The notes under the pieces are model-generated. The model was not told the DNA's origin and did no database searches. It saw nothing but the letters and a program-made list of their open reading frames with translations. The translations under genes were made by a program, and so were the position numbers. A stretch of 64,000 nt of DNA from Streptomyces sp. NBC_00259 (GTDB lineage Bacteria > Actinomycetota > Actinomycetes > Streptomycetales > Streptomycetaceae), in NCBI RefSeq assembly GCF_036181745.1, contig NZ_CP108080.1, positions 2,232,001-2,296,000 on the forward strand, in the 5' to 3' direction. Positions 24,873 through 40,204 of this stretch are shown in pieces (the stretch's first letter is position 1; every line of letters begins with the position of its first letter).

Positions 24873-24884
24873 GAACCGGCAGAC

Positions 24885-24898
24885 TAGAACACGTTCCA
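24885..24898. promoter_or_regulatory. KstR operator overlapping the acyl-CoA dehydrogenase promoter
   Basis: TAGAACACGTTCCA matches TNNAACNNGTTNNA exactly. On the minus strand its end merges with the -10 hexamer TAGTCT 8 nt before ATG 24872, an arrangement fitting direct repression. Confidence 0.82.
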
Positions 24899-24900
24899 AT

Positions 24901-24915
24901 CTGACGGAAGGTCAG
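24901..24915. promoter_or_regulatory. CTGAC-N5-GTCAG palindrome at the acyl-CoA dehydrogenase promoter
   Basis: CTGACGGAAGGTCAG overlaps the -35 region of the acyl-CoA dehydrogenase promoter. The same pattern occurs at 40156-40170 and, with one mismatch, at 52879-52893. Confidence 0.55.
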
Positions 24916-24950
24916 AAACCCGGTGGACCGGAAAGCCGGCGGCTCGGCGG

Positions 24951-24955
24951 ACCGC
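24951..24955. repeat. Left target-site duplication ACCGC
   Basis: ACCGC directly abuts the left terminal TGTC and is repeated at 35806-35810. Confidence 0.9.
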
Positions 24956-25040
24956 TGTCTTGTCTCACTGAACCCTGCGAAGTCCGGGCATACATTGCGA
25001 GGGCTCTAGCGAAGTCCCGCGTGACCTTGCGAGCAGACCT
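24956..25040 (+). repeat. Tn7-like left end with TnsB-type binding repeats
   Basis: After the terminal TGTC, related sites recur: CTGAACCCTGCGAAG (24968-24982), ATACATTGCGAGGG (24990-25003) and GTGACCTTGCGAGC (25021-25034), with a weaker CTAGCGAAGTCC (25006-25017) between. The shared core TGMNCNTTGCGAG and regular spacing are as expected of transposase-binding repeats. Confidence 0.75.
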
Positions 25041-25055
25041 GGCGTTAGGCCACCC

Positions 25056-25817
25056 GTGGAAGCTGGGCTACGTGTGCTGGCCGGTGGCGTACAGGGGCCG
25101 CCTTCTGGCGGATTCGAGGTCGGGTACGTCGAGCCGGACGGGTCGGAGTTCCGGCGGCCACTGGCCGATGTTTGGTCAGTGCGGTTCGAGGGCGTCGCGC
25201 CGGTACGCACGTTCAAGTCGTACAAAGGGCAGCGGCACCTGCCAGGGCTGTGGTGGTCGTCGACGGCGGGGGGCCACATCGGTTACGAGTCCTGGCTGGA
25301 ACGCGATCACGTGATGCTGATGGACTTCGACCCGTCGGTGGTGGGGGTGTCGTCACAGCCGTTCTGGCTGTTCTGGACGTCAGGGAACGGCAAGGTCATC
25401 TCGCACGCGCCGGACTACTTCGCACGGCGGGATGACGGTTCCGCAGTGTTGCTCGACTGCCGCCCGGCGGAACGGCGCCGGCCCCGGGACTGGGAGAAGT
25501 TCGAGGCGACGAGGACCGCCTGCGATCAGGTGGGGTGGGAGTTCCGCCTGGTGGGGGCGCCGGACGAGATCCTGGTGAGGAATGTGAAGTGGCTGTCGGG
25601 CTACCGGCATCCGCGCCACCTGGTGGAGCCAATCGCATCTGGGTTGCGGGAGGTGTTCGCCGCACCACACCCGTTGATGGCTGGCGCCACGATGGCGGGG
25701 GATCCCATCGCCGTGCTGCCGGTGCTTTTCCACTTGTTGTGGCTCCACGAGCTGTTGGTGGATGTGCGGGTTCCGCTGCACGCCGCAGCGATGGTGTCAT
25801 CGGGGCCGATGCAGTGA
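25056..25817 (+). CDS. tnsA: TnsA-like endonuclease subunit of heteromeric transposase
   Basis: A 253-residue TnsA-type protein, which cleaves the 5' ends of the transposon in partnership with TnsB. The nuclease block reads YESWLERDHVMLMDFDP (Glu), SHAPDYFARRDDG (Asp) and VLLDCRP. The position usually occupied by a catalytic lysine (D/E-x-K) is arginine, as in the streptomycete TnsA-like family I recall; activity is therefore uncertain. The start is ambiguous (GTG 25056 or GTG 25074); no clear ribosome site. The stop overlaps the tnsB start (TGATG). Confidence 0.85.
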   Translation: MEAGLRVLAGGVQGPPSGGFEVGYVEPDGSEFRRPLADVWSVRFEGVAPVRTFKSYKGQRHLPGLWWSSTAGGHIGYESWLERDHVMLMDFDPSVVGVSSQPFWLFWTSGNGKVISHAPDYFARRDDGSAVLLDCRPAERRRPRDWEKFEATRTACDQVGWEFRLVGAPDEILVRNVKWLSGYRHPRHLVEPIASGLREVFAAPHPLMAGATMAGDPIAVLPVLFHLLWLHELLVDVRVPLHAAAMVSSGPMQ

Positions 25818-27832
25818 TGGCGGGCGGGAGTGCTTCGGTGCTGCGCCCCGGCGACTGGGTCACCTACGCGGACGGCGACCACCAGGTAGTGGCCCTGGCT
25901 GGAACTTCGGTACGGCTGCGCTCTCAGGACGGGGCGGAGTCGGTGGTTCTGGCTTCGTATCTGATGGCCTCTCCCGGCTTCGCGGTCGCCGGAACAGAAC
26001 CCCCGGCAGCTGTCGAGCCGTTCGGTCTGTTGGAGAGCCTTCCGAAGTCGGTGCTGGCGGCCGCGCGAGAGTGGGAACGTCACGTCGTCGAGGTCGAGAC
26101 CGGGCTGCCGCCGACGACTGATCCAGGGTCGGGGCCACGGCAGGAGTATGACCCGGCACGGCGGACTCTGGCCGAGCGTGATGCGGCAAAGGCACACGAG
26201 CTGGGGGTCAGCGCCCGCACTGTCCAAAGCAGGCGGGCCCGCTATGCGCGTCAAGGACTGTGGGGGCTGGTCGATCAGCGCACGATCCGAGAGTGGGAGA
26301 CCACGGGGCGAGCGGATGCACGACTGATCGATGCGATCTGCCAGGTGATGGACAGCGAAACAACTACCTCGACCGGAACCCGCTCGCGGCTGATCCGCCG
26401 AGTGATCAAAATGGTGGAGGATGCGCACGGACCGGGGACGGTCCCGCTGCCCAGCAGGAGCACGTTCTATCGGCTTGTCGACGCGCTTTCCACCGGTCGA
26501 CACACCTTCGGCTCTGCCGTCACCCGCCGCCAGATGGCCAACCGGCCTGAAGGCCCGTTCACGCCGACGTTCGCGGACCGGCCCGGGGAACAGGTGCAGA
26601 TCGACTCCACCCCGCTGGACGTGATGGTGGTGCTCGATTCCGGGTTGACTGCCCGCGCCGATCTGACGATTGCTGTCGATGTTGCAACCCGCACGATCTG
26701 CGCGGCCGTGCTGCGGCCGATGGGGACGAAGGCGGTGGACGCCTCGCTGCTGTTGGCCCGGATGCTGGTGCCGGAACCGATGCGCCCGGGCTGGTCGACG
26801 TCGCTTCGGATGACGGCTTCTCGGATACCGCACCTGCGCTTGCTGGATGTGGACGCGCGGATGGAACAGGCCGCCGCGAAACCGGTGATCGTGCCGGACA
26901 CTGTCGTCATCGACGGCGGGAAGGTGTTCATCTCGGAGACCTTCATCCGGGCCTGCAATCGACTCGGAGTCTCAGTCCAAAGGGCACGTCCGCGCACCCC
27001 TACGGACAAGGCCATCGTGGAGGCGACTTTCTCCGCGATCAACACCTTGTTCTGCCAGCATGTCGCCGCCTACACCGGCCCCAACGTCTCCCGCCGTGGC
27101 GAGCGGGTGGAAGCACACGCGGCCTGGACGATTCCCGAACTCCAGGACTTGCTGGACGAGTGGCTTCTCGTCGGATGGCAGATGCGGCCGCATGACAGCC
27201 TCCGCGATCCCTACCGGCCCAAAATGGCGATGTCGCCGAACGACAAATACACGTCGCTGGTGGCCGCCAGCGGCTACCTGCCGCTGGTCTTGCGTGGTGA
27301 GGACTACCTCGAACTGTTGCCGGTGGCCTGGCGAGCGGTCAACGACTACGGAGTCCGGATCAACCACCGCACCTACGACTGTGCGGACCTGGGGCCGTGG
27401 CGGCGCCAGCAGTCCGGAATTGCTGCCAAGCGTGGTCTCTGGGAGGTGTACTACGACCCCTACGACCTGTCCCGAGTGTTCGTACGCACCCAGCACGGCT
27501 GGATCACCGTGCCCTGGATCCAGCTACCGCTGATCAACGCTCCGTTCGCGGACTTCACCTGGCAGCACGCACGCCGTCTGGCCGCCGAAGCCGGATTGGA
27601 CGACACCAACGAAGACGCGGTCGCCCGCGTGCTGGACAAGCTGCTGAGCCGGGCCGAGCACGGCCCCGACAAACGCACGGTCCGCGTGCTCGACCGAACC
27701 CGAGCGGCAGTCGCCATCCCTGCACCTGCCGCCGAACCTGAATCCGACACGCCCTCACCAATCCAGCTGCCCGCCCCGGTGGCGCCCTTCGGTGTCTTCG
27801 ACGCCCACGCTGAAGCCGAAAGGTGGCTCTGA
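25817..27832 (+). CDS. tnsB: TnsB-like DDE transposase (rve integrase core)
   Basis: A 671-residue transposase. N-terminal HTH segments (HELGVSARTVQSRRARYARQG; SRLIRRVIKMVEDAHGPGTV) bind the end repeats. The retroviral-integrase-fold core contains D263 (QIDSTPLDV), D366 (VIDGGKVF) and E402 (KAIVEATFS), the last two separated by 35 residues as in classical D-D-35-E enzymes. A Mu/TnsB-type C-terminal beta-barrel (YDPYDLSRVFVRTQHGWI) follows. It joins element 3' ends to the target. It is coupled to tnsA by a 1-nt overlap and 3 bp from tnsC. Confidence 0.95.
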   Translation: MAGGSASVLRPGDWVTYADGDHQVVALAGTSVRLRSQDGAESVVLASYLMASPGFAVAGTEPPAAVEPFGLLESLPKSVLAAAREWERHVVEVETGLPPTTDPGSGPRQEYDPARRTLAERDAAKAHELGVSARTVQSRRARYARQGLWGLVDQRTIREWETTGRADARLIDAICQVMDSETTTSTGTRSRLIRRVIKMVEDAHGPGTVPLPSRSTFYRLVDALSTGRHTFGSAVTRRQMANRPEGPFTPTFADRPGEQVQIDSTPLDVMVVLDSGLTARADLTIAVDVATRTICAAVLRPMGTKAVDASLLLARMLVPEPMRPGWSTSLRMTASRIPHLRLLDVDARMEQAAAKPVIVPDTVVIDGGKVFISETFIRACNRLGVSVQRARPRTPTDKAIVEATFSAINTLFCQHVAAYTGPNVSRRGERVEAHAAWTIPELQDLLDEWLLVGWQMRPHDSLRDPYRPKMAMSPNDKYTSLVAASGYLPLVLRGEDYLELLPVAWRAVNDYGVRINHRTYDCADLGPWRRQQSGIAAKRGLWEVYYDPYDLSRVFVRTQHGWITVPWIQLPLINAPFADFTWQHARRLAAEAGLDDTNEDAVARVLDKLLSRAEHGPDKRTVRVLDRTRAAVAIPAPAAEPESDTPSPIQLPAPVAPFGVFDAHAEAERWL

Positions 27833-27835
27833 TAC

Positions 27836-28918
27836 ATGCCTTCCCCGCCCACGACTCCGGTCAAGGAAGAGACACAGCAGGGGCCGCCGCCGGACAGCCC
27901 ACTGACCACCAAGGAGGGCTGGCGACGGTTCGTCGAACACGAACCGATCCCTCCCGTTCTCCTGTCGGCCGACGAGCGGGCAGCTCTGCCCGAGCGGCAA
28001 CGGATGCGCGCGGACGACTCGCGGCGCGGCTATCACGCCGACCTCCCACTCGTGAACACCCCGACCATCCGCAAGGTCGTCGCTACCTCCCGCCTGTTGG
28101 TCCAGCTCAACCGCCAGCAGATCTCCGCCCGCCGCGGCGTCATCCTCAGCGGCGCTTCGGGCACCGGAAAGACCACCGCGCTGTCCCAGTTGGGGCGTGC
28201 CCATGAACTCGCCGTCCGCAAGCGTCATCCTCGCGACCGCAACCGGCTACCCGTCCTCTACGCAACGGTCCCGCCGGCTGCCACCCCGCGAATGCTCGCG
28301 GTGGAGTTCGCCCGGTTCTTCGGCCTGTCCTTCCCGGCACGGTCCAACATCACCGACGTCGTCGACGCGGTCTGCGCGACCGCTGCCCACGTCCACGTCG
28401 ACCTGGTGCTGATCGACGAACTCCACAACCTCAACCTGGCCAGTCGGACCGGTGCCGAAGCTTCCGATCAACTCAAGTACTTCGCTGAGCGGCTGCCCGC
28501 CACGTTCATCTACGCAGGCATCGATGTCGAGGCCCAGGGACTGTTCGCGGGCACCCGCGGACGGCAGATCGCTGGCCGCTTCACCGTGATTCCAGCCTCC
28601 CCGTTCTCCTACGCCACCAATGAGGACCGGGACACCTGGACGGCGTTGGTCCAGACCCTGGAATCGATGCTCAGGCTGCATCACCATCGGCCTGGATCCC
28701 TCCCCAGCCTGAGCGGGTACCTCTTCCACCGCACCGGCGGAATGATCGGCAGCCTCTCCCAGCTCATCCGCGGCGCCGCCGTGCTGGCCATCGAGGACGG
28801 CAGCGAACGCATCACCGAAGACCTCCTGGACAGCGTTCCGATCGACTACGCCGCCGAACAGTCCGAAAAGCTCACAGCACCGACCAAGCGCACAGGTCGG
28901 CGAAGGCGCGCGGCCTGA
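27836..28918 (+). CDS. tnsC: TnsC/TniB-like AAA+ ATPase, transposition regulator
   Basis: A 360-residue ATPase. Walker A GASGTGKT (about residues 104-111), Walker B LVLIDELHNL and a sensor region (TFIYAGIDVE) are intact. TnsC proteins form ATP-dependent filaments on DNA, link the TniQ/TnsD target selector to TnsAB and provide target immunity. The start ATG is 3 bp past tnsB. The stop overlaps the tniQ start (TGATG), so the stoichiometry is probably coupled. Confidence 0.93.
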   Translation: MPSPPTTPVKEETQQGPPPDSPLTTKEGWRRFVEHEPIPPVLLSADERAALPERQRMRADDSRRGYHADLPLVNTPTIRKVVATSRLLVQLNRQQISARRGVILSGASGTGKTTALSQLGRAHELAVRKRHPRDRNRLPVLYATVPPAATPRMLAVEFARFFGLSFPARSNITDVVDAVCATAAHVHVDLVLIDELHNLNLASRTGAEASDQLKYFAERLPATFIYAGIDVEAQGLFAGTRGRQIAGRFTVIPASPFSYATNEDRDTWTALVQTLESMLRLHHHRPGSLPSLSGYLFHRTGGMIGSLSQLIRGAAVLAIEDGSERITEDLLDSVPIDYAAEQSEKLTAPTKRTGRRRRAA

Positions 28919-30018
28919 TGGCCGTCCGCCGCCTGCCTGACCCGATCCCGCCCGTCCGCCACGAGATCACAGGCTCCTACGTCGCCCGGCTTGCGCGGAT
29001 CCACGGCATGGATTTCCCCACGCTCTGGGAGCAGATTTCGCAACCGATCAAGCCCCGAAGCAGCGTCCGCCGACTCGTCCCAGACCAGCTCGCGATGCTC
29101 ACGGGACGATCCGTCCATCAGCTCGCCGGAGCCCTTCCCGAGCTTCGGACACCGGCACCCGACTGGCACACCTTCCGGCATGAACCACAACCCGCCTGCC
29201 ACATCTGCACAGCACCCCACCCCGGCGGCCCTGTCCTTCAGCTGCTGCCACATCACCGCTACGTCTGCGTCCGTCACCAAATCTGGATCGGACCACCAGA
29301 CGTCGACCACCTCACCACACCACTCACCGATCTACCCGAAGTCATCCATGCCCAACGACGTCACTTGCTCCTGTTCCAGCGGGCTGGCTGGGCCAACACC
29401 TACGACGCCGTCCTCACCGCGATCCTCATCTGCGCACAACTCTGGTCCAGCCCCTCTGAAGACCCCTCCGGCGCCTGGCATGAGTGGGTACGGCGCGCCA
29501 ACATCCTCATTCCGCCAGGAACATCAGAGTCATCCTTTTCCACGGCCAGACTCTGTGCTGCCGTCTATCCCGAGGCCATCTCCCTCGCAGCATGTCTCGC
29601 CTCCCCGCACTGGCGCCTACAAGCCCGGGGATCTTTGGACGACCGCGCCCGTTTCGACACGGAAATCGCTCGGCTCCTGGCCCACCCTGCTTACCACCGG
29701 GACCGTCAGGACGACCCAATCAGCTACTGGGCCGACGTCAGTTCCCGCCGCCCGCCAGTTGCTCCCATCCGTCTCTTCACCGACAGGAAACCGACCCGCA
29801 CCCCGCACCTCCACCGGCCGTCCCTGCACGCCGCCACACGCCGCACTCAGCAACGCCATGCCCGCGAGTTCGACTCCACCAACCGAGCTGGCGAGGCACT
29901 CGTCATGCACCGCCATGTCGCATCTGTTTACCGGCGCGCTTGGAATCCCATCCGGACTTGCTCCATCACCAACCAGCCCCACCCTCATTACAGCCGCTAT
30001 CTCAACCGGTTCGAATGA
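28918..30018 (+). CDS. tniQ: TniQ/TnsD family target-selection protein
   Basis: A 366-residue TniQ-domain protein. The N-terminal PPVRHEITGSYVARLARIHGMDFPTLW and the zinc-binding CHICTAPHPGGPVLQLLPHHRYVCVRH (CxxC...CxxH) define the family. It is longer than CRISPR-associated TniQ-only proteins handle alone, but shorter than E. coli TnsD (508 aa). The extra C-terminal 200 residues are basic and could read a specific attachment sequence. It is the only target selector in the element, so it presumably dictated insertion next to the 93-residue gene. Confidence 0.9.
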   Translation: MAVRRLPDPIPPVRHEITGSYVARLARIHGMDFPTLWEQISQPIKPRSSVRRLVPDQLAMLTGRSVHQLAGALPELRTPAPDWHTFRHEPQPACHICTAPHPGGPVLQLLPHHRYVCVRHQIWIGPPDVDHLTTPLTDLPEVIHAQRRHLLLFQRAGWANTYDAVLTAILICAQLWSSPSEDPSGAWHEWVRRANILIPPGTSESSFSTARLCAAVYPEAISLAACLASPHWRLQARGSLDDRARFDTEIARLLAHPAYHRDRQDDPISYWADVSSRRPPVAPIRLFTDRKPTRTPHLHRPSLHAATRRTQQRHAREFDSTNRAGEALVMHRHVASVYRRAWNPIRTCSITNQPHPHYSRYLNRFE

Positions 30019-30377
30019 ACGCAGGCCACGGCTTCCCGCTCTCCGCGCGCCCCCGATGTCAGTCCCTTCTGGGGTTCAGCCGAGATACGCGTCAAGGGGG
30101 CAATGAGTAGATCTTGATGCGGCTTTACGCGTGGTCAGCACAGTGACGCCGCAGTAAATGCGTACATCTCGCCCTGGAAGCCGGAACGGTCCGCCGCAGG
30201 TCGCGACGATCACGGCCAGGGCTCCGTCGCAGTAAATCCAGTATTTACTGCGGCAGTTGTGATTACGTCTCCGCGATCGCACAACTGCCCGAATGTGGTT
30301 CTGCTGTGAGGGCTTGAGGGGAGGAGACTGTCAGTGCGCGACGCTGACCAGTCCTGGCGCCAGCATGTTTGCCTGGG
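30019..30377. other. Non-coding interval in the Tn7-like element with CGCAGTAAAT repeats
   Basis: No credible gene. CGCAGTAAAT occurs three times: direct at 30153-30162 and 30229-30238, and inverted as ATTTACTGCG at 30243-30252, the last two forming a hairpin (10-bp arms, 4-nt loop). This stretch is AT-richer than the neighbourhood. It could terminate the tns operon or be a recombinase site. Confidence 0.6.
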
Positions 30378-31115
30378 TCATGCCCCCAGGTCCTCCGTCA
30401 CGGGCAGGCACTCGGCGAGCAGGTCGACGACGTCGCGCCAGGCTCGCTGCGCGTGCTGTGGGTGGTAGCCGACACCGGGGACCACGGGGTGGTCGACCGG
30501 CGGGTGGTGGAAGGCGTGCAAGGCGCCGCCATAGACCGCGAGGCGCCAGTCGACGCCCGCGGCCTGCATCTCAGCGGTGAACGCGTTTCGTTGCGCGGGC
30601 GGCATGATCGGGTCTTCCGATCCGACCCCGGCCCACACCGGGCAGCGGATGCGCGCTGCCTCGCCCGGTCGGCCCGTGGTAGTTGCGTTGACTGTCCCGA
30701 TCGCGCGCAAGTTGACGCCGCCTCGCCCGAGTTCCAGCGCGATGGCGCCCCCGGTGCCGTAGCCGATGGCGGCGATCCGGTCGGGGTCGGTCCGGGGCTC
30801 GGTGCGCAACTCGTCGAGTGCCGCGTGGCCGATGCGCCGCATCCGGTCGGGATCAGCGAGCAGTGGCATGCAACGGGCCAGCATCTCCTCGGGGTCACCC
30901 AAATAGCGCCCGCCGTGAAGGTCGAAGGCCAGCGCTACATATCCCAGCTCGGCGAGAGCATCGGCCCGGCGGCGCTCGACGTCGCTGAGCCCCATGCCCT
31001 CTGGTCCGAGCAGCACTGCGGGCCGGCGGTCGACACCGGCCGGGAGCGCGAGGTGCCCGATCATCGTCAAACCGTCGGCCGGGTACTCGACCGTACGCGT
31101 CGTAATCGTCATCAT
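30378..31115 (-). CDS. Dienelactone hydrolase family protein with altered nucleophile motif
   Basis: A 245-residue alpha/beta-hydrolase of the dienelactone hydrolase family. The nucleophile elbow reads AAIGYGTGGA, whereas active enzymes have GYCFGG or G-x-S-x-G: the Cys/Ser position is Gly. The Asp region (VWAGVGSEDPIMPP) and the His (YGGALHAFHHP) are present. Either another residue serves or the protein is non-hydrolytic. It is cargo of the Tn7-like element, transcribed against tns. A palindrome GTTCTGCC-gct-GGCAGAAC (31157-31175) lies 42 bp upstream. The first or second ATG (31115/31112) may be used. Confidence 0.8.
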   Translation of the reverse strand: MMTITTRTVEYPADGLTMIGHLALPAGVDRRPAVLLGPEGMGLSDVERRRADALAELGYVALAFDLHGGRYLGDPEEMLARCMPLLADPDRMRRIGHAALDELRTEPRTDPDRIAAIGYGTGGAIALELGRGGVNLRAIGTVNATTTGRPGEAARIRCPVWAGVGSEDPIMPPAQRNAFTAEMQAAGVDWRLAVYGGALHAFHHPPVDHPVVPGVGYHPQHAQRAWRDVVDLLAECLPVTEDLGA

Positions 31116-31494
31116 GAGACTGGACTGTAGTGATCGTCGAGCCCGGTCCGGCCGGTGTTCTGCCGCTGGCAGAACAGCGTAGGTGTCCCTCTGAAATACG
31201 GGACGGGCCCGGCGCTCAGGGCTTCAAGATCATCCCGTTGCCCCTTTGGCGCGTATCTCGGTACCGACGCCAATTGCATCGGATGCGAATAGGCGACACC
31301 CGCCCCGGATGCTGGCCGGACACGGCACAGATGCGGTCCGAGCAGGGCCGTTGGCCTCGGAGCCACGGTAGCGGTCTTGTCGGCGGACATCTGCGCGTCT
31401 CACTCCATCGAGCGATTGAACTGCGAAGACGCCCCCGAGTCGCATCTGATGCGAAATTCTCGCGTCAGATGCGATAGACGGAGAGTGATGGCGG
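31116..31494. promoter_or_regulatory. Divergent control region with repeated 15-bp palindromes
   Basis: No gene. GTTCTGCC/GGCAGAAC (31157-31175) faces the hydrolase gene. Three related 15-mers of form TYGCATC-N-GATGCGA lie at 31274-31288, 31440-31454 (perfect palindrome TCGCATCTGATGCGA) and 31460-31474. The last two are 20 bp apart (two helical turns) just upstream of the tyrosine recombinase. They are candidate operators for the HTH protein at 32613 or recombination core sites. Confidence 0.7.
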
Positions 31495-32613
31495 ATGGGT
31501 GGGGACGGTCTCGTTCCAGGGTCTGCTCGGCTGCACCTGATCGACGGTCTGCCGTTGCTGCGGCCGGACGAGCAGGTCTTCGAGGCGATGATCAAAGGCT
31601 GGCGCAACCAGCAGCTCGCCCGGAACCTCTCGCTGGGATACGTCGATGACCAGGAACGTACGGTCCGGGCCTTCGTCCGGCATGCCGACGCTATGCCGTG
31701 GCAGTGGACGCCGCAGCACGTCGATGAGTGGTCGGCCGATCTGCGGGCTGTGCACGGCTGTGTCCGCTCCACCCTGCGCAACTACCAGGGCTCAGTAAGG
31801 CAGTTCTGCGACTTCCTGACCAACCCGGCCTACGGCTGGAGCGACGAGCGTCTGCGGCACTTCGGTACCCACCCGGTCCAGGTGGTCTACGACTGGAACG
31901 CCGCAACGCACGCCGACGAAGCCGAGGGCGAGCCGGAACGACGGGCCTTTACCCGGCCCGAGCTGGAAGCATTCTTCGACCACGCCGACGAGGAAGTGCT
32001 GCGTGTTCGCGACAAGGGCCGCAAGGGCTGGCTGCCGGCCTTCCGGGACGCCGCCTTGTTCAAGGTCGCGTACGCCTACGGCCTGCGACGCAATGAGACC
32101 CGGATGCTCGACCTCACCGACTTCGGCCGCAACCCAGAAGGCCGGGAGTTCGGTGAGTACGGCACCCTGCTGGTCCGCTACGGCAAGGCCAAGAAGGGGT
32201 CGCCACCGAAGCGCCGCAGCGTGCTGACCGTCTGGCACTGGACGCCCGGCACGATCGAGGAATGGATCAGCGAGGTGCGGCCCGGGATGCGGCATGCGCC
32301 AAGCCGGGCCCTCTGGCCGTCCGAGCGAGGCCCGCGAATCGGGGTCCAGCGTCTGGACTCGCGCTTCGCCGCCTACCGGGACGCCGTCGGCCTGGACCCC
32401 GCGCTGGAGTTCCACTCGCTACGCAGGTCCTACATCACCCATCTGATCGAGGACGGCCACGACCCGTTGTTCGTCCAACAGCAGGTCGGCCACGACCACG
32501 CCTCCACCACCGCGATCTACACCTGCGTCTCCTCCGATTTCCGCACTCGCTCCCTGCGACGCGTCCTGGACGCCACCATCGAGGCCGCTCTGCGGACGGG
32601 AAGGACCTCCTGA
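31495..32613 (+). CDS. Tyrosine recombinase / site-specific integrase
   Basis: A 372-residue integrase with intact catalytic residues: first Arg in YAYGLRRNETRML, Lys in the beta-hairpin (RYGKAKKGSPP), H-x-L-R in EFHSLRRSYITHLI, His in QVGHDHASTTAIY and nucleophile Tyr in AIYTCVS. The N-terminal SAM-like DNA-binding domain spans about 20-110. ATG 31495 follows GGAGAG at 31480-31485. It is coupled (TGATG) to the HTH gene, and with the zinc-finger recombinase-like gene forms a trio inside the Tn7-like element. Confidence 0.93.
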   Translation: MGGDGLVPGSARLHLIDGLPLLRPDEQVFEAMIKGWRNQQLARNLSLGYVDDQERTVRAFVRHADAMPWQWTPQHVDEWSADLRAVHGCVRSTLRNYQGSVRQFCDFLTNPAYGWSDERLRHFGTHPVQVVYDWNAATHADEAEGEPERRAFTRPELEAFFDHADEEVLRVRDKGRKGWLPAFRDAALFKVAYAYGLRRNETRMLDLTDFGRNPEGREFGEYGTLLVRYGKAKKGSPPKRRSVLTVWHWTPGTIEEWISEVRPGMRHAPSRALWPSERGPRIGVQRLDSRFAAYRDAVGLDPALEFHSLRRSYITHLIEDGHDPLFVQQQVGHDHASTTAIYTCVSSDFRTRSLRRVLDATIEAALRTGRTS

Positions 32614-32939
32614 TGTCACGCCAGATCAGCTACCGGTGGCGCCTGCGTGAGCTGATGGCCGCCCGCGGCATGTTCACCGTCGCCGAGCTCATGCCGCACC
32701 TGGCCGAACGCGGCATCACACTGTCCTCCTCCCAGGTCCACCGTTTGGTCTCCGGAACCCCGGAACGGCTGTCCCTGCCCGTGCTGGCCACTCTCTGCGA
32801 CATCCTCGACTGCACGCCCACCGACCTGATCGCCACCTCGGCCCAGAACCTCCCGACCCGCCGCGCCGCCGGCGAAGAAGCTCCGATCAACCTGGCCGCC
32901 CGCCGACCCACACGGGTCCGGCTGACGCCCGAGGGGTGA
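32613..32939 (+). CDS. XRE-like helix-turn-helix protein
   Basis: A 108-residue protein with a Cro/C1-type HTH (RLRELMAARGMFTVAELMPHL...SSSQVHRLVSGTPERLSLPVLATLCDILDCTPTDLI). It is followed by a short basic tail (RRPTRVRLTPEG). It likely binds the palindromes upstream of the recombinase gene or acts as a directionality/control factor. It overlaps the recombinase stop by 1 nt and ends 3 bp before the next gene. Confidence 0.88.
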   Translation: MSRQISYRWRLRELMAARGMFTVAELMPHLAERGITLSSSQVHRLVSGTPERLSLPVLATLCDILDCTPTDLIATSAQNLPTRRAAGEEAPINLAARRPTRVRLTPEG

Positions 32940-32942
32940 GCG

Positions 32943-34409
32943 GTGACGCCGGAGGAGTACGAGCGGTGGATGATCCGCGACTGCGCACGCTGCGGCCGTC
33001 GGGCTTCCAAGTCCGCCGAGTGGTCGGACGGCCCGATCTGCCGAACCTGCTACGAACGTGCGATGCGCGTCCGCGGCCGCTGCCCCTGTTGCGAGACTGA
33101 CCGGCTGCTGCCCGGACGGGACACCGATGGCACACCGATCTGCCGCGACTGCGCGGGCATCGTCCGCGACTTCTTCTGTGATCGCTGCGGCTTCGAGGGG
33201 CTCCTACTCGGTGGGCGTCTCTGCGAACACTGCACCCTCGCTGACACGCTCGCCCACCACCTCGACGACGGCACCGGCCGTGTCGCCCCGGAGTTCCTGC
33301 CGCTGGTCGAGATCCTTCTGGAGATGGACCGGCCAAAGAGCCGCCTGATCTGGCTCCGCAACCCCAATGTCGTCCGTCTCCTGCGGGGCCTGGCCACCGG
33401 CAGCATTCCGCTCACCCACGACGGGCTGCACCAAGAAACCCCCTGGCGAACCGTTACCCACCTGCGTGACCTGCTGATGGACAGCGGCGTCCTCCCGCGA
33501 GTCGACCGGCAGCTCCTGCTCTACCAACGCTGGCTGACGGAACGGCTCGCCACCATTGGGGAACCCGAACACCACCAGCTTCTCCGGCACTTCGCCATCT
33601 GGCACCAGATGCGGCGCCTGCGGGCAAAGGCCGAGAAGGCACCGCTGGGACGCTCCCAGACCAACCACACCAAGCAGGAAGTCACCCAAGCCGGCGCCTT
33701 CCTCGCATGGCTCGCCGACCGAGGGCGCACAATCGGGCAGTGCCAGCAGGCCGACATCGACGCCTGGCACACCGAGAGCCTGGCCACCCGCCGTCCGTCC
33801 CAGTCATTCCTGCGGTGGTGCATGACGACCGGCCGGATGCCCCGCCTCACACTGCCGCCCGCGGTCATCACCCAGGACCCGGAACCGCTGCACCAGCACT
33901 GCCGGCTCGCGATCCTCCGCCGGGTCCTCAATGACGACTCCTTGCCCCTGCGGGCCCGGGTCGCCGCCGCACTCGTTCTCCTCTATGCGCAACCCGTCAG
34001 CCGCATCGTCCGCCTCGCCATCGATGACATCACCGACGACGGGACCACCGTCACCGTCCGACTGGGAGAGCCGCCGTCCCCGCTGCCGGAGCCCGTCGCC
34101 GACCTGATGCGGGCCTACATCCGGTCCCGACAGCACATGCCCTACGCCAGTAGCAGAAGCTCACAGTGGCTTTTCCCCGGCCGCCAGCCCGGACAGCCCA
34201 TGAACCCGGTCAGCCTCCAAGTCCACCTCCGAAAGATCGGCGTCCCGCCGCAACGAGGCAGGACCTCCGCGATCCGCCAGCTCGTCCTCCAAGCCCCGGC
34301 ACCCGTCATCGCGAAGGCGCTGGGCTACCACGACAAGACCGCCACCCGCCTGGTCACCGAAGCCGGAGGAACCTGGAGCCGATATGCACCCGGCGACCAC
34401 ACACGCTGA
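32943..34409 (+). CDS. Zinc-finger, recombinase-like protein of the integrase trio
   Basis: A 488-residue protein. The N-terminal ~100 residues hold four CxxC-type knuckles (CARCGR, CRTC, CPCC, CRDC...CDRCGF...CEHC), suggesting two or more zinc fingers. The rest resembles a tyrosine recombinase: an N-terminal core-binding-like domain (QAGAFLAWLADRG) and a C-terminal catalytic-like region (LLYAQPVSRIVRLAIDDI...IRQLVLQAPAPVIAKALGYHDKTATRLVTEAGGTW). The canonical HxLR and final Tyr are degraded, so it may be a catalytically weak or accessory recombinase. Start GTG 32943 follows GAGGGG. Confidence 0.75.
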   Translation: MTPEEYERWMIRDCARCGRRASKSAEWSDGPICRTCYERAMRVRGRCPCCETDRLLPGRDTDGTPICRDCAGIVRDFFCDRCGFEGLLLGGRLCEHCTLADTLAHHLDDGTGRVAPEFLPLVEILLEMDRPKSRLIWLRNPNVVRLLRGLATGSIPLTHDGLHQETPWRTVTHLRDLLMDSGVLPRVDRQLLLYQRWLTERLATIGEPEHHQLLRHFAIWHQMRRLRAKAEKAPLGRSQTNHTKQEVTQAGAFLAWLADRGRTIGQCQQADIDAWHTESLATRRPSQSFLRWCMTTGRMPRLTLPPAVITQDPEPLHQHCRLAILRRVLNDDSLPLRARVAAALVLLYAQPVSRIVRLAIDDITDDGTTVTVRLGEPPSPLPEPVADLMRAYIRSRQHMPYASSRSSQWLFPGRQPGQPMNPVSLQVHLRKIGVPPQRGRTSAIRQLVLQAPAPVIAKALGYHDKTATRLVTEAGGTWSRYAPGDHTR

Positions 34410-34489
34410 CAGGAGCGACGTGGCTGCTCTGATGGGCCAAGCTCCCGCGAGCGGCCCGATGTCAGTACCAGGTGGCAGGCTCTGCCTCC

Positions 34490-35026
34490 ATGAACAAGCA
34501 GCAGTTCTGGCAGCTCATTGAGGCAGCCCGCAATCAAGCGTCCAACCCGAACGACGGCGAAGCGGTCGCTCGCGAGGCGACCTCGCTGCTGGCCTCCCGG
34601 CCGGTCGAGGAGATCCTCGCAGCTGAACAGGTGCTGTGGGACCTGATGGTCGACTCCTACACCAATCCTCTGTGGGCCGCTGCTTACATCGCCAACGGTG
34701 GCTGCTCTGACGACGGCTTCGACTACTTCCGCGGCTGGCTGATCGCTCAGGGCCGTGAAGTCTTCGAACATGTAGTCGCTGACCCCGATGCCCTGGCAGA
34801 ACTGCCCATCGTTCAAGCCTCCGCAGCCGACGGCGTCGACCTGGAGGGTGAGGACATGCTGGGCATCGCCTGGAACGCACACATCTCAGCGACCGGTGAT
34901 CAGCTCCCCGCGAGCCCACCCACCATCCGCTACCGGGAGCTGGACCCCACCTGGAACTTCGATTTCGATGACCACGACGAAATGACTCGCCGACTGCCCC
35001 GCTTGGCAGCTCTCTATCTGGAATAG
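34490..35026 (+). CDS. DUF4240 domain-containing protein
   Basis: A 178-residue acidic cytosolic protein beginning MNKQQFWQLIEAARNQ, the DUF4240 signature (N-x-x-FWxLIE), with YIANGGCSDDGFDYFRGWLIAQGREVFEHVV in the middle. Function is unknown. Such small acidic proteins are frequent cargo of mobile elements. Start ATG 34490 is favoured because the family begins there. It lies 80 bp after the recombinase trio and may have its own promoter. Confidence 0.8.
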   Translation: MNKQQFWQLIEAARNQASNPNDGEAVAREATSLLASRPVEEILAAEQVLWDLMVDSYTNPLWAAAYIANGGCSDDGFDYFRGWLIAQGREVFEHVVADPDALAELPIVQASAADGVDLEGEDMLGIAWNAHISATGDQLPASPPTIRYRELDPTWNFDFDDHDEMTRRLPRLAALYLE

Positions 35027-35214
35027 GCAGAAGCTCGCAGTCACAAGACGGGGTCAACAGCGGAGAGCGAGACTCCCGAGCATCACTGTCCGTCACTCCA
35101 TCAGGCCATGAACACGTCTCGGCTGACGAATACGCGATACCTCAACATGCGGGCCTACCAGTCTCACACCCCCTTCTGGCACGATGCCCGGGCATCCACA
35201 CGATCAGGAGAGAC

Positions 35215-35646
35215 ATGGGCACCTGGGACGTCGGCCCCTTCGACAACGACACCGCGGCGGACTTCTCCTACACCCTCGACGAAGCAGCCGAGGGCGAGCG
35301 GGAAAGCATCATCCGCGCGGCGCTGGTCCGCACGGTCGACACCCACGGCTGCCTCAACCACGACGTCTCGGTCGAGGCAATCGCCGCGGCGGCCCTGGTG
35401 GCCGCACAGTGCCCCGGAGGCGAGCCCATCACGACCGCCTACGGGCCGGACCTGCCCATCCCCGAGCTGCCTGCCGATCTACGCGAGCTCGCCATCCACG
35501 CCCTCGACCGAGTCGTCACCGAGCCGTCCGAGCTCATGGAACTCTGGGGTGAAAGCGACAAGGGTGGCCCTTGGCGAGCGACCATCTCTCAACTGCTAAA
35601 CGCTCTTCTGCCACCGGCTCTGAGAGAACAGCTCAGCCTGATCTGA
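35215..35646 (+). CDS. DUF4259 domain-containing protein
   Basis: A 143-residue acidic protein starting MGTWDVGPFDNDTAADFSYTLDEA, the hallmark of DUF4259 (G-x-W-x-x-GPFDNDxAxDF), with AAAALVAAQCPGG later. Biochemical role is unknown. CAGGAGAG precedes ATG 35215 by 6-7 nt. It is the last cargo gene before the right end of the Tn7-like element. The 188 bp before it show no gene. Confidence 0.85.
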   Translation: MGTWDVGPFDNDTAADFSYTLDEAAEGERESIIRAALVRTVDTHGCLNHDVSVEAIAAAALVAAQCPGGEPITTAYGPDLPIPELPADLRELAIHALDRVVTEPSELMELWGESDKGGPWRATISQLLNALLPPALREQLSLI

Positions 35647-35699
35647 CAACCCCCGTCCGAGAGTCAATTCACATCGCCTCGGCGCCCAACAGACCGCCG

Positions 35700-35805
35700 A
35701 TTACGCAACCTATGGTGAGACGATCCGGCCCTCACCTGCCCAAGCGAAGGTTGCGAATCGCAGATCACCAGGAGCAGGGCTCGCAACGTTCAGTCGGACG
35801 GGACA
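35700..35805 (-). repeat. Tn7-like right end with TnsB-type binding repeats
   Basis: On the minus strand reading inward from 35805: terminal TGTC, CTGAACGTTGCGAGCCC (35779-35795), then GGTGATCTGCGATTCG (35755-35770) and GGTTGCGTAAT (35702-35712). These match the left-end core (T)TGCGA. 35647-35699 shows nothing else. Confidence 0.72.
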
Positions 35806-35810
35806 ACCGC
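35806..35810. repeat. Right target-site duplication ACCGC
   Basis: ACCGC directly follows the right terminal GACA and is identical to 24951-24955. Confidence 0.9.
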
Positions 35811-35813
35811 CGC

Positions 35814-36095
35814 TCAGCCGGGGAACGCGAGCGTGACGCCGCCGCCCTCCTTCACCGCCTCCACGGCCGCCTGGTGCACGGCCCTGCCGGTGTCCTCGTC
35901 GACGGCCGGTACGGGACTGCCCTCCACCGCGTACCACTCGGTCGCGCCGGTGTGCTGCACGGTCACCTGGGCCAGGCCGTCGATCCACGTGGTGTGCACG
36001 GTCAGGTCTCCCGTGATCGGACCTCCCTCCGTGGTCATCACCCCGCCCGTGCCGGCGACGATTCCCTGAGTGGTCCAGGTCGCCCAGGTGTCCAT
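35814..36095 (-). CDS. Conserved small hypothetical protein next to the Tn7-like insertion
   Basis: A 93-residue protein (MDTWATWTTQGIVAGTGGV...VKEGGGVTLAFPG), predicted beta-rich with a TWIDGLAQVTVQHTGATEWYAVEG core. No family was recognised. ATG 36095 has GGAGG 7 nt upstream and is preferred over an upstream ATG at 36137. Its TGA (35816-35814) ends 8 bp from the transposon right end, so its 3' end could be the attachment sequence. Before insertion, it would have preceded the acyl-CoA dehydrogenase gene by about 86 bp on the same strand. Confidence 0.75.
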   Translation of the reverse strand: MDTWATWTTQGIVAGTGGVMTTEGGPITGDLTVHTTWIDGLAQVTVQHTGATEWYAVEGSPVPAVDEDTGRAVHQAAVEAVKEGGGVTLAFPG

Positions 36096-36167
36096 GGCAC
36101 GCCTCCGCAGCAGTCCTGTGCACGTACGTATGTCCATCCTCTCCGCATTCCCGCCGACGCGCCCGGC

Positions 36168-37316
36168 TCACGCGCCGGGGGCGCCTCCCATGGACCGGAG
36201 CATCCCCACACCGCCGGTGCGCACGAAGCGCACCACGAACGCCGCCGCGAGCAGCAGGAAGACGATGTTGAGCCAGGTCGTGTAGTCCCAGGAGACCCCC
36301 TCGTCGGGGACCTTCGCGCCCGACCGGTCCGGGATGATCCCGAGCGCCCCGAAGACGAACTCGACGACGTACGCGGCGACGACGACGGAGGCGTAGAACG
36401 TCCCGAGGAGGAACGCGGCCATCCGCACCCCGTAGTACTTCCGGTAGATGTTCAGGATCGGCACGATCAGCAGGTCGGCGAAGATGAAGGCGATCACCCC
36501 GCCGAAGCTGATCCCGCCCTGCCAGAGCACCACGGCGAGCGGCACGTTGCCGACCGAGCAGACGAACGAGGCGATGGCGACGAGCGGCCCGACCAGCGGG
36601 CCCCACAGCTTCGCGAGCAGCGGGTGCCCCTCGAAGAAGAACGCGCTCCAGAACGCGTCCGGCACCCAGGCGGCCACGGCCCCGGCGATGAGCAGGCCCA
36701 GCACCAGATCGCGCAGGATCGCCGCCCACTCCATCACGAAGACGTGCGCCGTGGCGGTGAAGCCCGCCGCGGACAGCAGCCGGCGCCGGAAGGAGCCCTC
36801 GCCCCCGACGGACATGTCCATGGCCGCGTGGCCCTCCATCGAGCCGGCCAGCCCGCGCCCGGCCTGCGCCCGTGCCTCACTGAGCAGCCGCTCACGCAGG
36901 AACAGCCGGAAGAGCACGGCGAGCGCCACGATCATGACCGGCCCGCCCGCGAACTCGGCCGCGGTGAACTGCCATCCCATCAGCAGCGCCAGGATGACTC
37001 CCAGCTCGACGACGAGATTGGTCGAGGCGATCTCGAAGGCCATCGCCGCGGTGAAGTTCGCCCCCTTGCGGAACAGCGAGCGCGCGAGCGCCACGGCCGC
37101 GTACGAACACGACGACGACGCCACGCCGAGGCCGGCCGCGGCGACCAGGCTCCGCGGGCTGTCGTCGCCGAGGAGCGAGACGACGGTGGACTTGCGGACC
37201 ACGGCCTGCACGACCGCGGACAGCGCGAAGCCCAGGATCAGGGCCCAGGTGATCTCCCACGCCATCGAACCGCTGAGGGACAGGGCGTGCAGTACGGCAT
37301 CGAGCGCTGCGTCCAT
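36168..37316 (-). CDS. Permease of the UPF0718/ArsP-like family
   Basis: A 382-residue integral membrane protein with about 8-9 spans. Conserved cysteines occur in GVASSSCSYAAVAL and FVCSVGNVPLAVVLW, characteristic of the permease family that includes ArsP organoarsenical exporters. A FIFADLLIVPILNIYRKYYG segment follows. The substrate is unknown; no arsenic genes are nearby. ATG 37316 is preferred (MDAALDAVLHAL). It lies upstream of, and on the same strand as, the 93-residue gene with a 72-bp gap. Confidence 0.85.
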   Translation of the reverse strand: MDAALDAVLHALSLSGSMAWEITWALILGFALSAVVQAVVRKSTVVSLLGDDSPRSLVAAAGLGVASSSCSYAAVALARSLFRKGANFTAAMAFEIASTNLVVELGVILALLMGWQFTAAEFAGGPVMIVALAVLFRLFLRERLLSEARAQAGRGLAGSMEGHAAMDMSVGGEGSFRRRLLSAAGFTATAHVFVMEWAAILRDLVLGLLIAGAVAAWVPDAFWSAFFFEGHPLLAKLWGPLVGPLVAIASFVCSVGNVPLAVVLWQGGISFGGVIAFIFADLLIVPILNIYRKYYGVRMAAFLLGTFYASVVVAAYVVEFVFGALGIIPDRSGAKVPDEGVSWDYTTWLNIVFLLLAAAFVVRFVRTGGVGMLRSMGGAPGA

Positions 37317-37476
37317 GCGCCTCACCCTCACGGTCCGCCCCGCGCCGCAGCCCCGCCGACACGGCCGCCGCGACCGTGTCCACCCGGTCGGGCCGGGCGG
37401 GGTGGGCCCCGGGGGGACCGGGACGCCGTCCGCCTACGATGTGACCGCCGAGTAGCGCTGCCCGCCGGAGGAACCC

Positions 37477-38136
37477 ATGGCCGTCGCCCCCGCCGCCCCC
37501 AGGCCGGAGACCCTCGCGGCCTTCGAGGCCGCCAAGGGCTTCATGCCCGTACGCGAAGGGCTGGCACTCCACGCGGCCGCTGTCGAGGCCGGGGCGCTCG
37601 GGCTGCCGCTGCTGGAGGTCGGGACGTACTGCGGACGGTCCACGATCCTGCTCGCCGACGCCGCCCGCGAGGCCGGCACCGTCGCGGTCACCGTCGACCA
37701 CCACCGCGGCAGCGAGGAGCAGCAGCCGGGCTGGGACTACCACGACCCGTCGGTGGTGGACCCCGAGGTGGGCCTGATGGACACCCTGCCCGCCTTCCGC
37801 CGCACCCTGTACCGGGCGGGCCTGGAGGACCACGTGATCGCGGTCGTCGGGCGGTCTCCGCAGGTGGCGAAGGTGTGGGGCCGGGAGGTCGGACTGGTCT
37901 TCATCGACGGCGGGCACACCGACGAGCACGCCGTGAACGACTACGAGGGCTGGGCCCCGCACATCGCCGCGGGCGGCCTCCTCGTCATCCACGACGTCTT
38001 CCCTGACCCGGTCGACGAATGGACCGGCCAGGCCCCGTACCGGATCTGGCTGAGGGCCCTGGCCTCCGGCGCCTTCACCGAGGTGTCGGCGACCGACTCG
38101 CTGCGGGTGCTGCGGCGCACGGGAACCGGGATCTGA
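37477..38136 (+). CDS. Class I SAM-dependent methyltransferase-like protein
   Basis: A 219-residue Rossmann-fold protein. LLEVGTYCGRSTILLADAA is motif I, VTVDHHRG follows as motif II, GLVFIDGGHTDEHAVNDYEGW and GGLLVIHDVF are the later strands. This is the family of O-methyltransferase-like or cephalosporin-hydroxylase-like proteins (methyltransferase 24 type). The acceptor is unknown. Divergent from the permease. Confidence 0.85.
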   Translation: MAVAPAAPRPETLAAFEAAKGFMPVREGLALHAAAVEAGALGLPLLEVGTYCGRSTILLADAAREAGTVAVTVDHHRGSEEQQPGWDYHDPSVVDPEVGLMDTLPAFRRTLYRAGLEDHVIAVVGRSPQVAKVWGREVGLVFIDGGHTDEHAVNDYEGWAPHIAAGGLLVIHDVFPDPVDEWTGQAPYRIWLRALASGAFTEVSATDSLRVLRRTGTGI

Positions 38137-38169
38137 GGGACGGCGCCGGACATCCCCTAGCATCACGAC

Positions 38170-39096
38170 GTGCCGTACGACGTGAACCAGCCCCCCGTCC
38201 GGTCCCGCCGCCCGGTCCGCGGCGGAGCCCTGCTCGCGGTCGCCGCGCTGGCGGTGGCCTGCCTGTCCGGATGCGGCGGGCCGAGCGGTCCGCCCGAGGC
38301 CGCGGCCGGCGCCTCGCCGTCCGCCACGGCGACGGACACCCCGACACCGCGCCCCGCCGGGACGCCGCCCTCCGGGGACGCCAAGCCCGCGGACCCCGGC
38401 GCGGAGCCGGGCGCCGGGACCGGCCCGCTCGCCGGAAAGGTCGTCGTGATCGACCCGGGCCACAACCCCGGCAACTTCCGGCACACCCGTGAGATCAACG
38501 CGCTCGTGGACATCGGCACACACCGCAAGGAATGCGACACCACGGGCACGTCCACCAACGATGGTCACACCGAGGCGGAATTCACCCTCGATGTTTCACA
38601 CCGCCTTCGCACCCTGCTGGAAAAGCAGGGCGCAAGGGTGCAATTCACTCAGGACAACGACCGGCCTTTCGGTCCCTGCGTGGATGAACGCGCACGTATC
38701 GGGAACAAGGCCTCCGCCGATGCCGTGGTCTCCGTCCACGCGGACGGCTCGGGGGTCGGGAACCGCGGCTTCCATGTGATCCTTCCCGCACTGGTGAAGG
38801 ACGGCTCCGCCGACACCACGAAGATCGTCGGACCCTCCCGCGAACTCGGCGAGCGCATCGCCGGGACGTTCGTACGCGCCACGGGCAGCAAGCCCTCCAA
38901 CTACGTGGGCGGCGGTACCGGGTTGGACGTCCGCGGGGACCTCGGTGGACTGAATCTGTCGACCGTTCCCAAGGTGTTCATCGAATGCGGCAACATGCGT
39001 GACGCGAAGGACGCCGCCCTGCTGACAAGTTCACAGTGGCGGCAGAAGGCGGCACAGGGAATCGCGGACGGCATCAGCACCTACCTGCTGGGGTAG
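38170..39096 (+). CDS. N-acetylmuramoyl-L-alanine amidase (Amidase_3), lipoprotein
   Basis: A 308-residue exported cell-wall hydrolase that cuts between MurNAc and the stem peptide. The N-terminal signal ends in a lipobox (ACLSGCGG), followed by a Pro/Ala/Thr linker (to about residue 85) and a catalytic zinc domain. The latter has VVIDPGHNPG (His), GHTEAEFTLDVSHRL (Glu), VVSVHADGSG (His) and KVFIECGNM (catalytic Glu). Start GTG 38170. It is probably transcribed from its own promoter after the methyltransferase gene (33-bp gap, same strand). Confidence 0.92.
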   Translation: MPYDVNQPPVRSRRPVRGGALLAVAALAVACLSGCGGPSGPPEAAAGASPSATATDTPTPRPAGTPPSGDAKPADPGAEPGAGTGPLAGKVVVIDPGHNPGNFRHTREINALVDIGTHRKECDTTGTSTNDGHTEAEFTLDVSHRLRTLLEKQGARVQFTQDNDRPFGPCVDERARIGNKASADAVVSVHADGSGVGNRGFHVILPALVKDGSADTTKIVGPSRELGERIAGTFVRATGSKPSNYVGGGTGLDVRGDLGGLNLSTVPKVFIECGNMRDAKDAALLTSSQWRQKAAQGIADGISTYLLG

Positions 39097-39258
39097 ACCC
39101 GACAGGCGATAGATTCATTTCCCGCCGGGTCGGGGGCCGCATGCCGGGACAGCCCGGCACCCGTACGATGGGGCCACCCCCGAGTTCTGCGCCGTGCACC
39201 GCCGACCGGCGGCACCGACGACCGCCCCGATGAGACGCAACCGACTAAGGACCTACAC

Positions 39259-40074
39259 GTGAACATCCGCTCCCTCACTCGAGGCGATGGCGTGGTGATC
39301 GGAGCAGCGGTGGTGCTGTTCATCGCCTCGTTCCTCGGCTTCATCAGCGTCGACTGCCCGAGCGGCATCGACTGCTCCCGCGCGGACCTGCCGAACGCCT
39401 GGGACTCGCTGGGCACCGTGATGTCCATCTACATCGCCGGGATCATCGGTGCGGCGCTCATCGTCGTCGCCCGCGCGCTGCCGGGGCGCAAGGTCCTGGG
39501 CCTCGACATCGGCCAGTTCGGCGTCGCCCTGAGCATCTTCGCCCTGTGGACGATGTTCTGGACGATCATCGACATGAACGCCGACGCCGGAGCCGGCGCG
39601 ATCCTCGGCCTGCTCGGCACCCTGCTGCTGGCCGGCGCCGCGATCGCCACCCCGCTCGTGCCCGCCCTCAAGGTCGCCCTGGTCGGCCCGCCCAAGCCGC
39701 AGGCCCCGCAGCCGTACGGCGCGCAGCCGCAGGGCGGTTACGGCTACCCCGGCGCCCAGCAGCCGCCGTACGGCGCGCAGCCGGGTCAGCCGCAGCCGTA
39801 CGGTGGCCAGCCCCAGCCCGGCCCGGCCGGTCCGGCGCAGGGCCAGCCGCAGGGCGGCCCGGCCCCGCAGGCCTCGGACTTCGCCCCGTTCTGGTTCGCG
39901 GTGCCGGTGGCCCGCCCGCTGTTCGCGGAGGACGGCTCGCAGACGCCGATCGCCGAACTGGCACCCGGCACCTGGTATCTCGCGGTGGAGCAGCGCGGTC
40001 CCGGCCTGGTGGCCCAGACGCAGGACGGCCGCCGTGGCGTCCTGCAGGACACGAGCGGCATCCAGCGCGGCTGA
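39259..40074 (+). CDS. DUF5336-like membrane protein with Pro/Gln/Gly-rich linker
   Basis: A 271-residue protein. Four hydrophobic segments (about 12-30, 50-70, 80-100 and 110-135) are followed by a YG/QP-rich repeat region (PQPYGAQPQGGYGYPG..., about 150-205) and a small C-terminal domain (FWFAVPVARPLFAEDGSQTPIAEL...). Similar architecture occurs in actinobacterial DUF5336 proteins of unknown function. Start GTG 39259. Ends before a stem-loop terminator at 40097-40126. Confidence 0.75.
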   Translation: MNIRSLTRGDGVVIGAAVVLFIASFLGFISVDCPSGIDCSRADLPNAWDSLGTVMSIYIAGIIGAALIVVARALPGRKVLGLDIGQFGVALSIFALWTMFWTIIDMNADAGAGAILGLLGTLLLAGAAIATPLVPALKVALVGPPKPQAPQPYGAQPQGGYGYPGAQQPPYGAQPGQPQPYGGQPQPGPAGPAQGQPQGGPAPQASDFAPFWFAVPVARPLFAEDGSQTPIAELAPGTWYLAVEQRGPGLVAQTQDGRRGVLQDTSGIQRG

Positions 40075-40096
40075 TCGGCATCCGCACAGCGCCTCG

Positions 40097-40126
40097 CGGC
40101 CCCTCGCCCTTCCGGGCGGGGGGCCG
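40097..40126 (+). terminator. Stem-loop terminator
   Basis: CGGCCCCTCGCCC (40097-40109) pairs with GGGCGGGGGGCCG (40114-40126) across TTCC, one G-U pair. It lies 23 bp after the DUF5336-like gene. Confidence 0.75.
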
Positions 40127-40155
40127 TTGCCGTACAGTCGCCCCCGGACAGCGAA

Positions 40156-40170
40156 CTGACGGTTCGTCAG
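40156..40170. promoter_or_regulatory. CTGAC-N5-GTCAG palindrome before the LLM oxidoreductase
   Basis: CTGACGGTTCGTCAG (perfect 6-3-6 inverted repeat) lies 35 bp upstream of the start, where a TetR-type repressor would act. Confidence 0.6.
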
Positions 40171-40204
40171 ACATCTCGGACGTGACGGATGGGGGCTGGG
40201 CGTC

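Follow-up and report, generated by a model that had tools for sequence, protein, structure and literature searches.

A Tsy-Like Tyrosine-Recombinase Element Lying within a Tn3-Family Terminal Inverted Repeat in Streptomyces

The DNA analyzed here, referred to below as the window, is a stretch of 64,000 nucleotides (positions 2,232,001 to 2,296,000) from the 8.16-Mb single-contig genome of Streptomyces sp. NBC_00259. Three genes on the forward strand of the window encode a tyrosine recombinase (YRec; orf1), a small helix-turn-helix (HTH) protein (orf2), and a TnsF-like zinc-finger protein (orf3). These genes were found, as stated in the original prediction, to be tightly packed, with a 1-nt overlap between orf1 and orf2 and a 3-bp gap between orf2 and orf3 (open reading frames as given). 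The 3' end of orf3 adjoins the right-end region of the element described below, and orf1 is present once in the genome. Coordinates of the features are collected in Table 1. Elsewhere in the window, the RNase P RNA (RF00010; 2473 to 2877, minus strand) is an ordinary chromosomal gene.

Table 1. Features of the element and of the DNA enclosing it, in window coordinates
Feature	Positions	Strand	Remarks
Island with tniA/tniB/tniQ	24917-35813		10.9 kb; encloses the Tn3-type unit and the element; tni genes at 25535-30018, by Pfam
Left 5-bp target duplication of Tn3-type unit	30066-30070		CTTCT
Left Tn3-type inverted repeat	30071-30120	-	Outer tip GGGGTTCAG (30071-30079); 41-nt arms, 83% complementary to 31221-31261
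Dienelactone-hydrolase-family gene	30378-31115	-	Belongs to the Tn3-type host unit, not to the element; PF01738, 3e-29
Inner part of right Tn3-type inverted repeat	31221-31261	+	Target side adjoining the left end of the element
Whole element	31262-35163	+	3,902 bp, T...C; no target duplication
Left end	31262-31298	+	TACCGACGCCAATTGCATCGGATGCGAATAGGCGACA
orf1, tyrosine recombinase (YRec), 372 aa	31495-32613	+	Phage_integrase, 6e-18; canonical catalytic residues
orf2, small Cro/C1-type HTH protein, 108 aa	32613-32939	+	HTH_26, 2.5e-18
orf3, TnsF-like protein, 488 aa	32943-34409	+	GTG start; six CxxC pairs and catalytically degenerate tyrosine-recombinase-like body
Cargo gene, DUF4240 family, 184 aa	34472-35026	+	PF14024, 1e-39
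Right end	35128-35163	+	GAATACGCGATACCTCAACATGCGGGCCTACCAGTC; direct repeat GAATAsGCGAyA, common to the left end
Outer 9 bp of interrupted Tn3-type repeat	35164-35172	+	TCACACCCC
Right 5-bp target duplication of Tn3-type unit	35173-35177		CTTCT

The orf1 protein matched XerD structures at the sequence level. Its catalytic set was complete, as had been claimed, with R198, K231, H307, R310, H333, and Y342 invariant in 22 relatives, and the reading frames and all of the orf1 catalytic residues were conserved across genera. For the orf3 protein, the description of a recombinase-like body without HxxR or a canonical Tyr was correct, but the four CxxC knuckles ascribed to it proved to be six pairs (C14/17, 33/36, 47/50, 67/70, 79/82, and 94/97). 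Canonical R-I, HxxR, and spaced Tyr residues were absent clade-wide and likewise from a Variovorax relative. As R440 was invariant and Y481 nearly invariant, at noncanonical spacing, orf3 could conceivably retain an unusual catalytic chemistry. The Pfam match of orf3 to Phage_integrase was sub-threshold (8.5e-5) and no match was obtained in an hhalign comparison of the orf3 and orf1 profiles, so that the relation of orf3 to recombinases is drawn from its fold and the weak Pfam match. Fold prediction, which had been proposed as a check on the third protein, gave a model with a mean pLDDT of 81.7 and a pTM of 0.41, the latter indicating that the arrangement of the domains is unsure. Foldseek matches of this model were to Xer, Cre, and lambda-type recombinases, with a probability of 1.00, a best E value of 7e-6, and low global TM-scores (0.2 to 0.3 to the query). 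Recombinase-like domains, rather than a whole-chain match, were therefore predicted from the model. A search of phage records for orf3 gave no match.

The functional unit exceeds the reported trio, extending over 31262 to 35163 rather than 31495 to 34409. A copy in another Streptomyces genome (G152) corresponded to exactly this interval (92.9% over 3,905 columns) in a different genomic context, with different DNA at either side, and DNA comparisons detected an onset of homology at 31262 in seven further loci or contexts. Because these sharp ends are shared with copies in unrelated contexts, the element was delimited as T31262...C35163, with the DUF4240 gene included. The direct repeat was detected in both ends, the right end sequence also being given as GAATACGCGAYACCTCAACATGCGGGCCTACCAGTC, and the terminus of the element reads ...CCAGTC. 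In a subfamily with 50% identity, both copies of the direct repeat had changed jointly to GAAyTsGCGACrG.

The element was found to lie within the right repeat of a 1.2-kb Tn3-type unit that has GGGG tips, is flanked by CTTCT at both sides, and comprises 30071 to 31261 plus 35164 to 35172. This hydrolase-bearing unit is itself part of the tni island, which is absent from another genome (G320) in which the counterparts of 22668 to 24916 and 35814 to 41213 are only ~490 bp apart. The suggestion of a nested integrative unit was thus upheld, as the element lies within the island and directly inside the Tn3-type unit. A search with PF01526 detected no Tn3 transposase in the genome, and hence the hydrolase unit is nonautonomous there. 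Element-free hydrolase units were present in other Streptomyces genomes, one example (G465) being intact, with a length of 1,197 bp and AAAGC duplications at both sides. A query across the right end of the hydrolase unit had matches with varied flanks in 290 of 393 genomes of the genus, although some of the hits may stem from ordinary hydrolase genes.

The element is inserted at a fixed point of a Tn3-family terminal inverted repeat, with 9 bp between this point and the outer tip, and no bases are duplicated. The uninterrupted repeat, ...CTCGG/TCACACCCC (with a slash at the joint), was present in many genomes (many of L060 to L077), and two further types of uninterrupted repeat, ...CGATGTTCC/CCGAGGCCG and ...CGCAACTAC/TCACACCCG, had the joint unchanged. 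In both L033 and L039, transposons that encode a Tn3-family transposase are bounded by the second repeat type, the one in L039 also having a recombinase-family gene. No matching target duplications were seen in L033, L039, L104, or L150. A single type of element was found in several different Tn3 repeat types. Two "classes" of right flank, considered as element variants, were rejected as such, as they correspond to the outer tips of distinct types of Tn3 repeat.

Similarity of the left junctions to Tn3 repeats was scored with repeat consensi at the exact phase, on flanks collected via the left end alone and with 20,000 random windows as a control. The 99.9th percentile was exceeded by 45 of 66 distinct junctions, with ~0.07 expected, in a score that leans towards the hypothesis through consensi partly drawn from the scored loci; the uninterrupted repeats are independent of this score. 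When right ends were located without use of the flank, an outer-tip sequence was detected 3' of the right end in 45 of 49 cases in subfamily 1 and 26 of 49 cases in subfamily 2. Many right ends of subfamily 2 adjoin other sequence, and those without a tip represent decayed copies or other targets. In L033, L039, and L013, the inner and outer halves of the split repeat were of different types, indicating that some copies were rearranged after insertion. These mixed halves suggest a later recombination between element copies that joined different Tn3 ends.

The slot between orf3 and the right end, which holds the DUF4240 gene in the window, was empty or otherwise filled in relatives. Only ~37 bp separated the 3' motif of orf3 from the right-end core in ~25 elements, and the remaining elements had one of ~23 unrelated inserts at this point. 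The cargo varied even among near-identical trios. Partial or decayed first right ends, at differing stages of decay, were detected between orf3 and the cargo gene in five loci (L179, L015, L103, L165, and L100), and the distal right end was often preceded by sequence resembling the orf3-proximal one. This pattern suggests that an element may take up flanking DNA as cargo when a second right end is used. Internally deleted copies (L013 and L043) retained the left end, the 3' region of orf3, and the right end, as expected of nonautonomous derivatives that need only the ends. An integron-like cassette array was suspected from the differing genes between orf3 and a shared 40-bp end. This reading was discarded, since there is a single slot per element, whether occupied or vacant, and Tn3 repeats make up the left flanks. 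ARAGORN reported a tRNA-Ala (cgc) at 34526 to 34611 on the minus strand, within the DUF4240 gene, which is probably spurious.

Among known elements, this arrangement was closest to that of Tsy, in which a YRec gene, a short gene for an HTH protein, and one for a zinc-finger TnsF-like protein are inserted in comM (Faure 2023, PMC10293859). The ZooTsy element has the gene order YRec-HTH-TnsF-nuclease; its TnsF catalytic activity was reported as needed, and the GIY-YIG nuclease of Tsy, present in one branch only, was reported to be nonessential (PMC10293859). A YRec-dependent circle of ZooTsy has the junction ...AATCCCAGTC/AAGTTCTGAT..., with ...AATCCCAGTC as end 2, and the attachment site lies within 40 bp upstream of the insertion point (PMC10293859). 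The present element shares with Tsy an active-type YRec gene upstream, a small HTH gene between, and a third gene for a TnsF-like protein with zinc fingers and a recombinase fold. Further likenesses are the lack of long terminal inverted repeats, an end in ...CCAGTC, a target that is recognized or conserved on the left-end side, and optional cargo near the right end. In contrast to Tsy, the target is a Tn3-family repeat and not comM, a GIY-YIG nuclease gene is absent from the trio (with only the DUF4240 gene after orf3 and diverse or no cargo in relatives), the hosts are actinobacterial, and orf3 is devoid of the canonical catalytic residues, which were reported to be indispensable in ZooTsy.

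Homology searches extended this comparison. A full-length alignment of orf3 with a Variovorax plasmid protein (25% over 505 columns; 9e-20 pairwise) was obtained, and the gene for the latter follows recombinase and HTH genes, which is the order of the trio. The actinobacterial orf3 profile matched a Tn6022-type TnsF, encoded beside TnsA, TnsB, and TnsC, with 66.6 bits under strong composition bias and with 48.6 bits and low bias for the best domain, the E value being computed for two sequences only. Like orf3, the TnsF of Tn6022-type Tn7 elements has zinc fingers, an inactive recombinase fold, and a length near 500 aa, in addition to this profile homology; it is partnered with TniQ and a Tn7 transposase, whereas orf3 is paired with its own YRec and HTH protein. 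Overall, the element would best be called an actinobacterial Tsy-like variant, which would work in the way of Tsy, is placed beside it by homology, and was compared with ZooTsy by description. The transposon-end target and the catalytically degenerate TnsF-like protein are new relative to Tsy, and the kind of element itself is already known.

A full-length orf3 with enough upstream DNA was available for 46 of 75 named genome loci, and the recombinase-HTH-orf3 order was present in 44 of these. This order is not a matter of chance, and the conservation in other genomes on which the original prediction depended was thereby established. The hosts include Streptomyces, Nonomuraea, Saccharopolyspora, Frankia, Nocardia, Gordonia, and Actinomadura, and orf3 relatives were detected in 256 plasmid records; the trio-bearing form of the Tsy kind is widespread in Actinomycetota.

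The position of the trio in the island, 1.2 kb from tniQ, and the relatedness of orf3 to TnsF, which serves TniQ in Tn6022, would fit a role as an accessory (a target selector or resolution system) of the neighboring tniABQ transposon. This role is very improbable, since the unit was found with both ends unchanged at dozens of unrelated loci, mostly without nearby tni genes (which, among annotated plasmid loci with neighbors listed, were near the unit only in L036), a Tn3-type unit with its own target duplication lies between the trio and tniQ, and the trio has a recombinase of its own. The trio order was thus present outside Tn7-like elements, as had been proposed for searching, and the idea of a resolution system for such an element was abandoned. 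An inversion switch, also envisaged, was not supported, as no invertible segment bounded by the ends of the element was seen.

The location of the trio at Tn3-type ends might instead reflect a resident module of certain Tn3-family transposons, evolved near their ends for a function such as cointegrate resolution, and tyrosine recombinases are carried by some Tn3-family elements. Such an origin has very little to commend it, in that the repeat is split at one point and uninterrupted repeats of the same types exist. Moreover, the element is found in several repeat types and, with unchanged ends, at orf3-to-right-end distances of 37 bp to ~1.8 kb, and a split repeat should hinder rather than serve Tn3 transposition. 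Least credible of all is a dead relic whose ends and position are conserved only by joint copying of Tn3-plus-element blocks, as, despite many truncated copies and C-terminal orf3 fragments and frame breaks in some copies, the flanks diverge exactly at the ends in many unrelated contexts, the frames and orf1 catalytic residues are conserved across genera, and the cargo is variable among near-identical trios. In many genomes, orf3 fragments from the C terminus look far more frequent than those from the N terminus, and one C-terminal fragment in L033 (13970 to 14172) begins directly after the outer tip of another Tn3-type end.

Other known systems were also compared. The RIT elements ("recombinase in trio") have three adjacent catalytic tyrosine recombinases, and the likeness originally drawn to them was discarded because recombinase competence is confined to the orf1 protein, the middle protein being an HTH protein and the third degenerate. 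GInts and SEs have a four-gene core with two active integrases (PMC5385486, PMC10214605). They resemble the present element in that a small operon for integration occupies one end, the core proteins include an inactive relative of recombinases, and cargo adjoins the operon, but the trio comprises three genes with one active integrase and no counterpart of the fourth gene, and the targets differ. Actinobacterial Tn554-like elements (Van Houdt et al. 2012, PMC3414803) similarly have short and long tyrosine-recombinase-related genes. Their TnpA and TnpB, with or without TnpC, have catalytic motifs, whereas the catalytic set of the trio is in orf1 only, and no full orf3 relative was found in the Tn554-like plasmids pRHL2 and FB24 plasmid 1. 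Tn3-family transposon ends are also the landing sites of IS4321 and IS5075 (IS1111 family), which use a DEDD transposase with a guide RNA; as their proteins are unrelated to those of the element, this likeness is a functional convergence only.

Taken together, it is highly probable that the trio drives a site-specific transposon of 3.9 kb that is of the Tsy kind, inserts at Tn3-family repeats, and would work in the following manner. Recognition of the target, ~40 bp on the inner side of a Tn3-family terminal inverted repeat, would fall to the HTH protein together with the TnsF-like protein, which has zinc fingers and an inactive recombinase fold. The YRec would join the ends of the element into a circle (...CCAGTC/TACCGA...) and insert this circle at a single point that leaves 9 bp of the repeat on the outer side, with the target unduplicated. 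The segment of the repeat that binds the transposase would thereby be cut off from the outer tip, and hence the Tn3 end would probably be immobilized. The passenger in the slot 3' of orf3 would be gained when a second, downstream right end is used, with subsequent decay of the first. We infer from the comparison of loci that the element is mobile; it would ride on its Tn3-family hosts, probably immobilizing them.

In a more distant branch the gene order was kept and the open frame of orf3 was ~770 to 950 aa. One genome (G103) had three near-identical 6.9-kb copies (L093, L094, and L095) of a related element with a longer TnsF-like protein, each in a different large integrase gene and directly 3' of the codons for GMR-x-x-E (box-I catalytic motif, GMRxxE). 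In another (G253), the left flanks of two further relatives (L096 and L097) were similar to box II (TTQxY) of tyrosine recombinase/integrase genes, which is again a mobile-element target. Targets vary by branch, yet they are conserved sequences of recombination systems. More tentatively, and with rather more doubt than confidence, these branches could form a lineage of YRec transposons in which a catalytically dead zinc-finger TnsF does no more than read the target, as an exchangeable partner of the one active recombinase. Branches of this lineage would have been redirected to conserved sequences on which the recombination of other mobile elements depends (Tn3 ends in the present case and integrase box-I codons in the longer-TnsF relatives) and would be natural silencers of rival elements, with TnsF as a possibly reprogrammable address for a one-enzyme integrase.

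The exact ends, the precise short target, and the minimal parts are now given for a compact site-specific integrase system that is abundant in Streptomyces. This system would be a case of a Tsy-like element that functions although its TnsF is inactive, so that whether TnsF alone sets the target becomes directly testable. The element is a tyrosine-recombinase counterpart of IS4321 and may switch off Tn3-family transposons by insertion into their ends.
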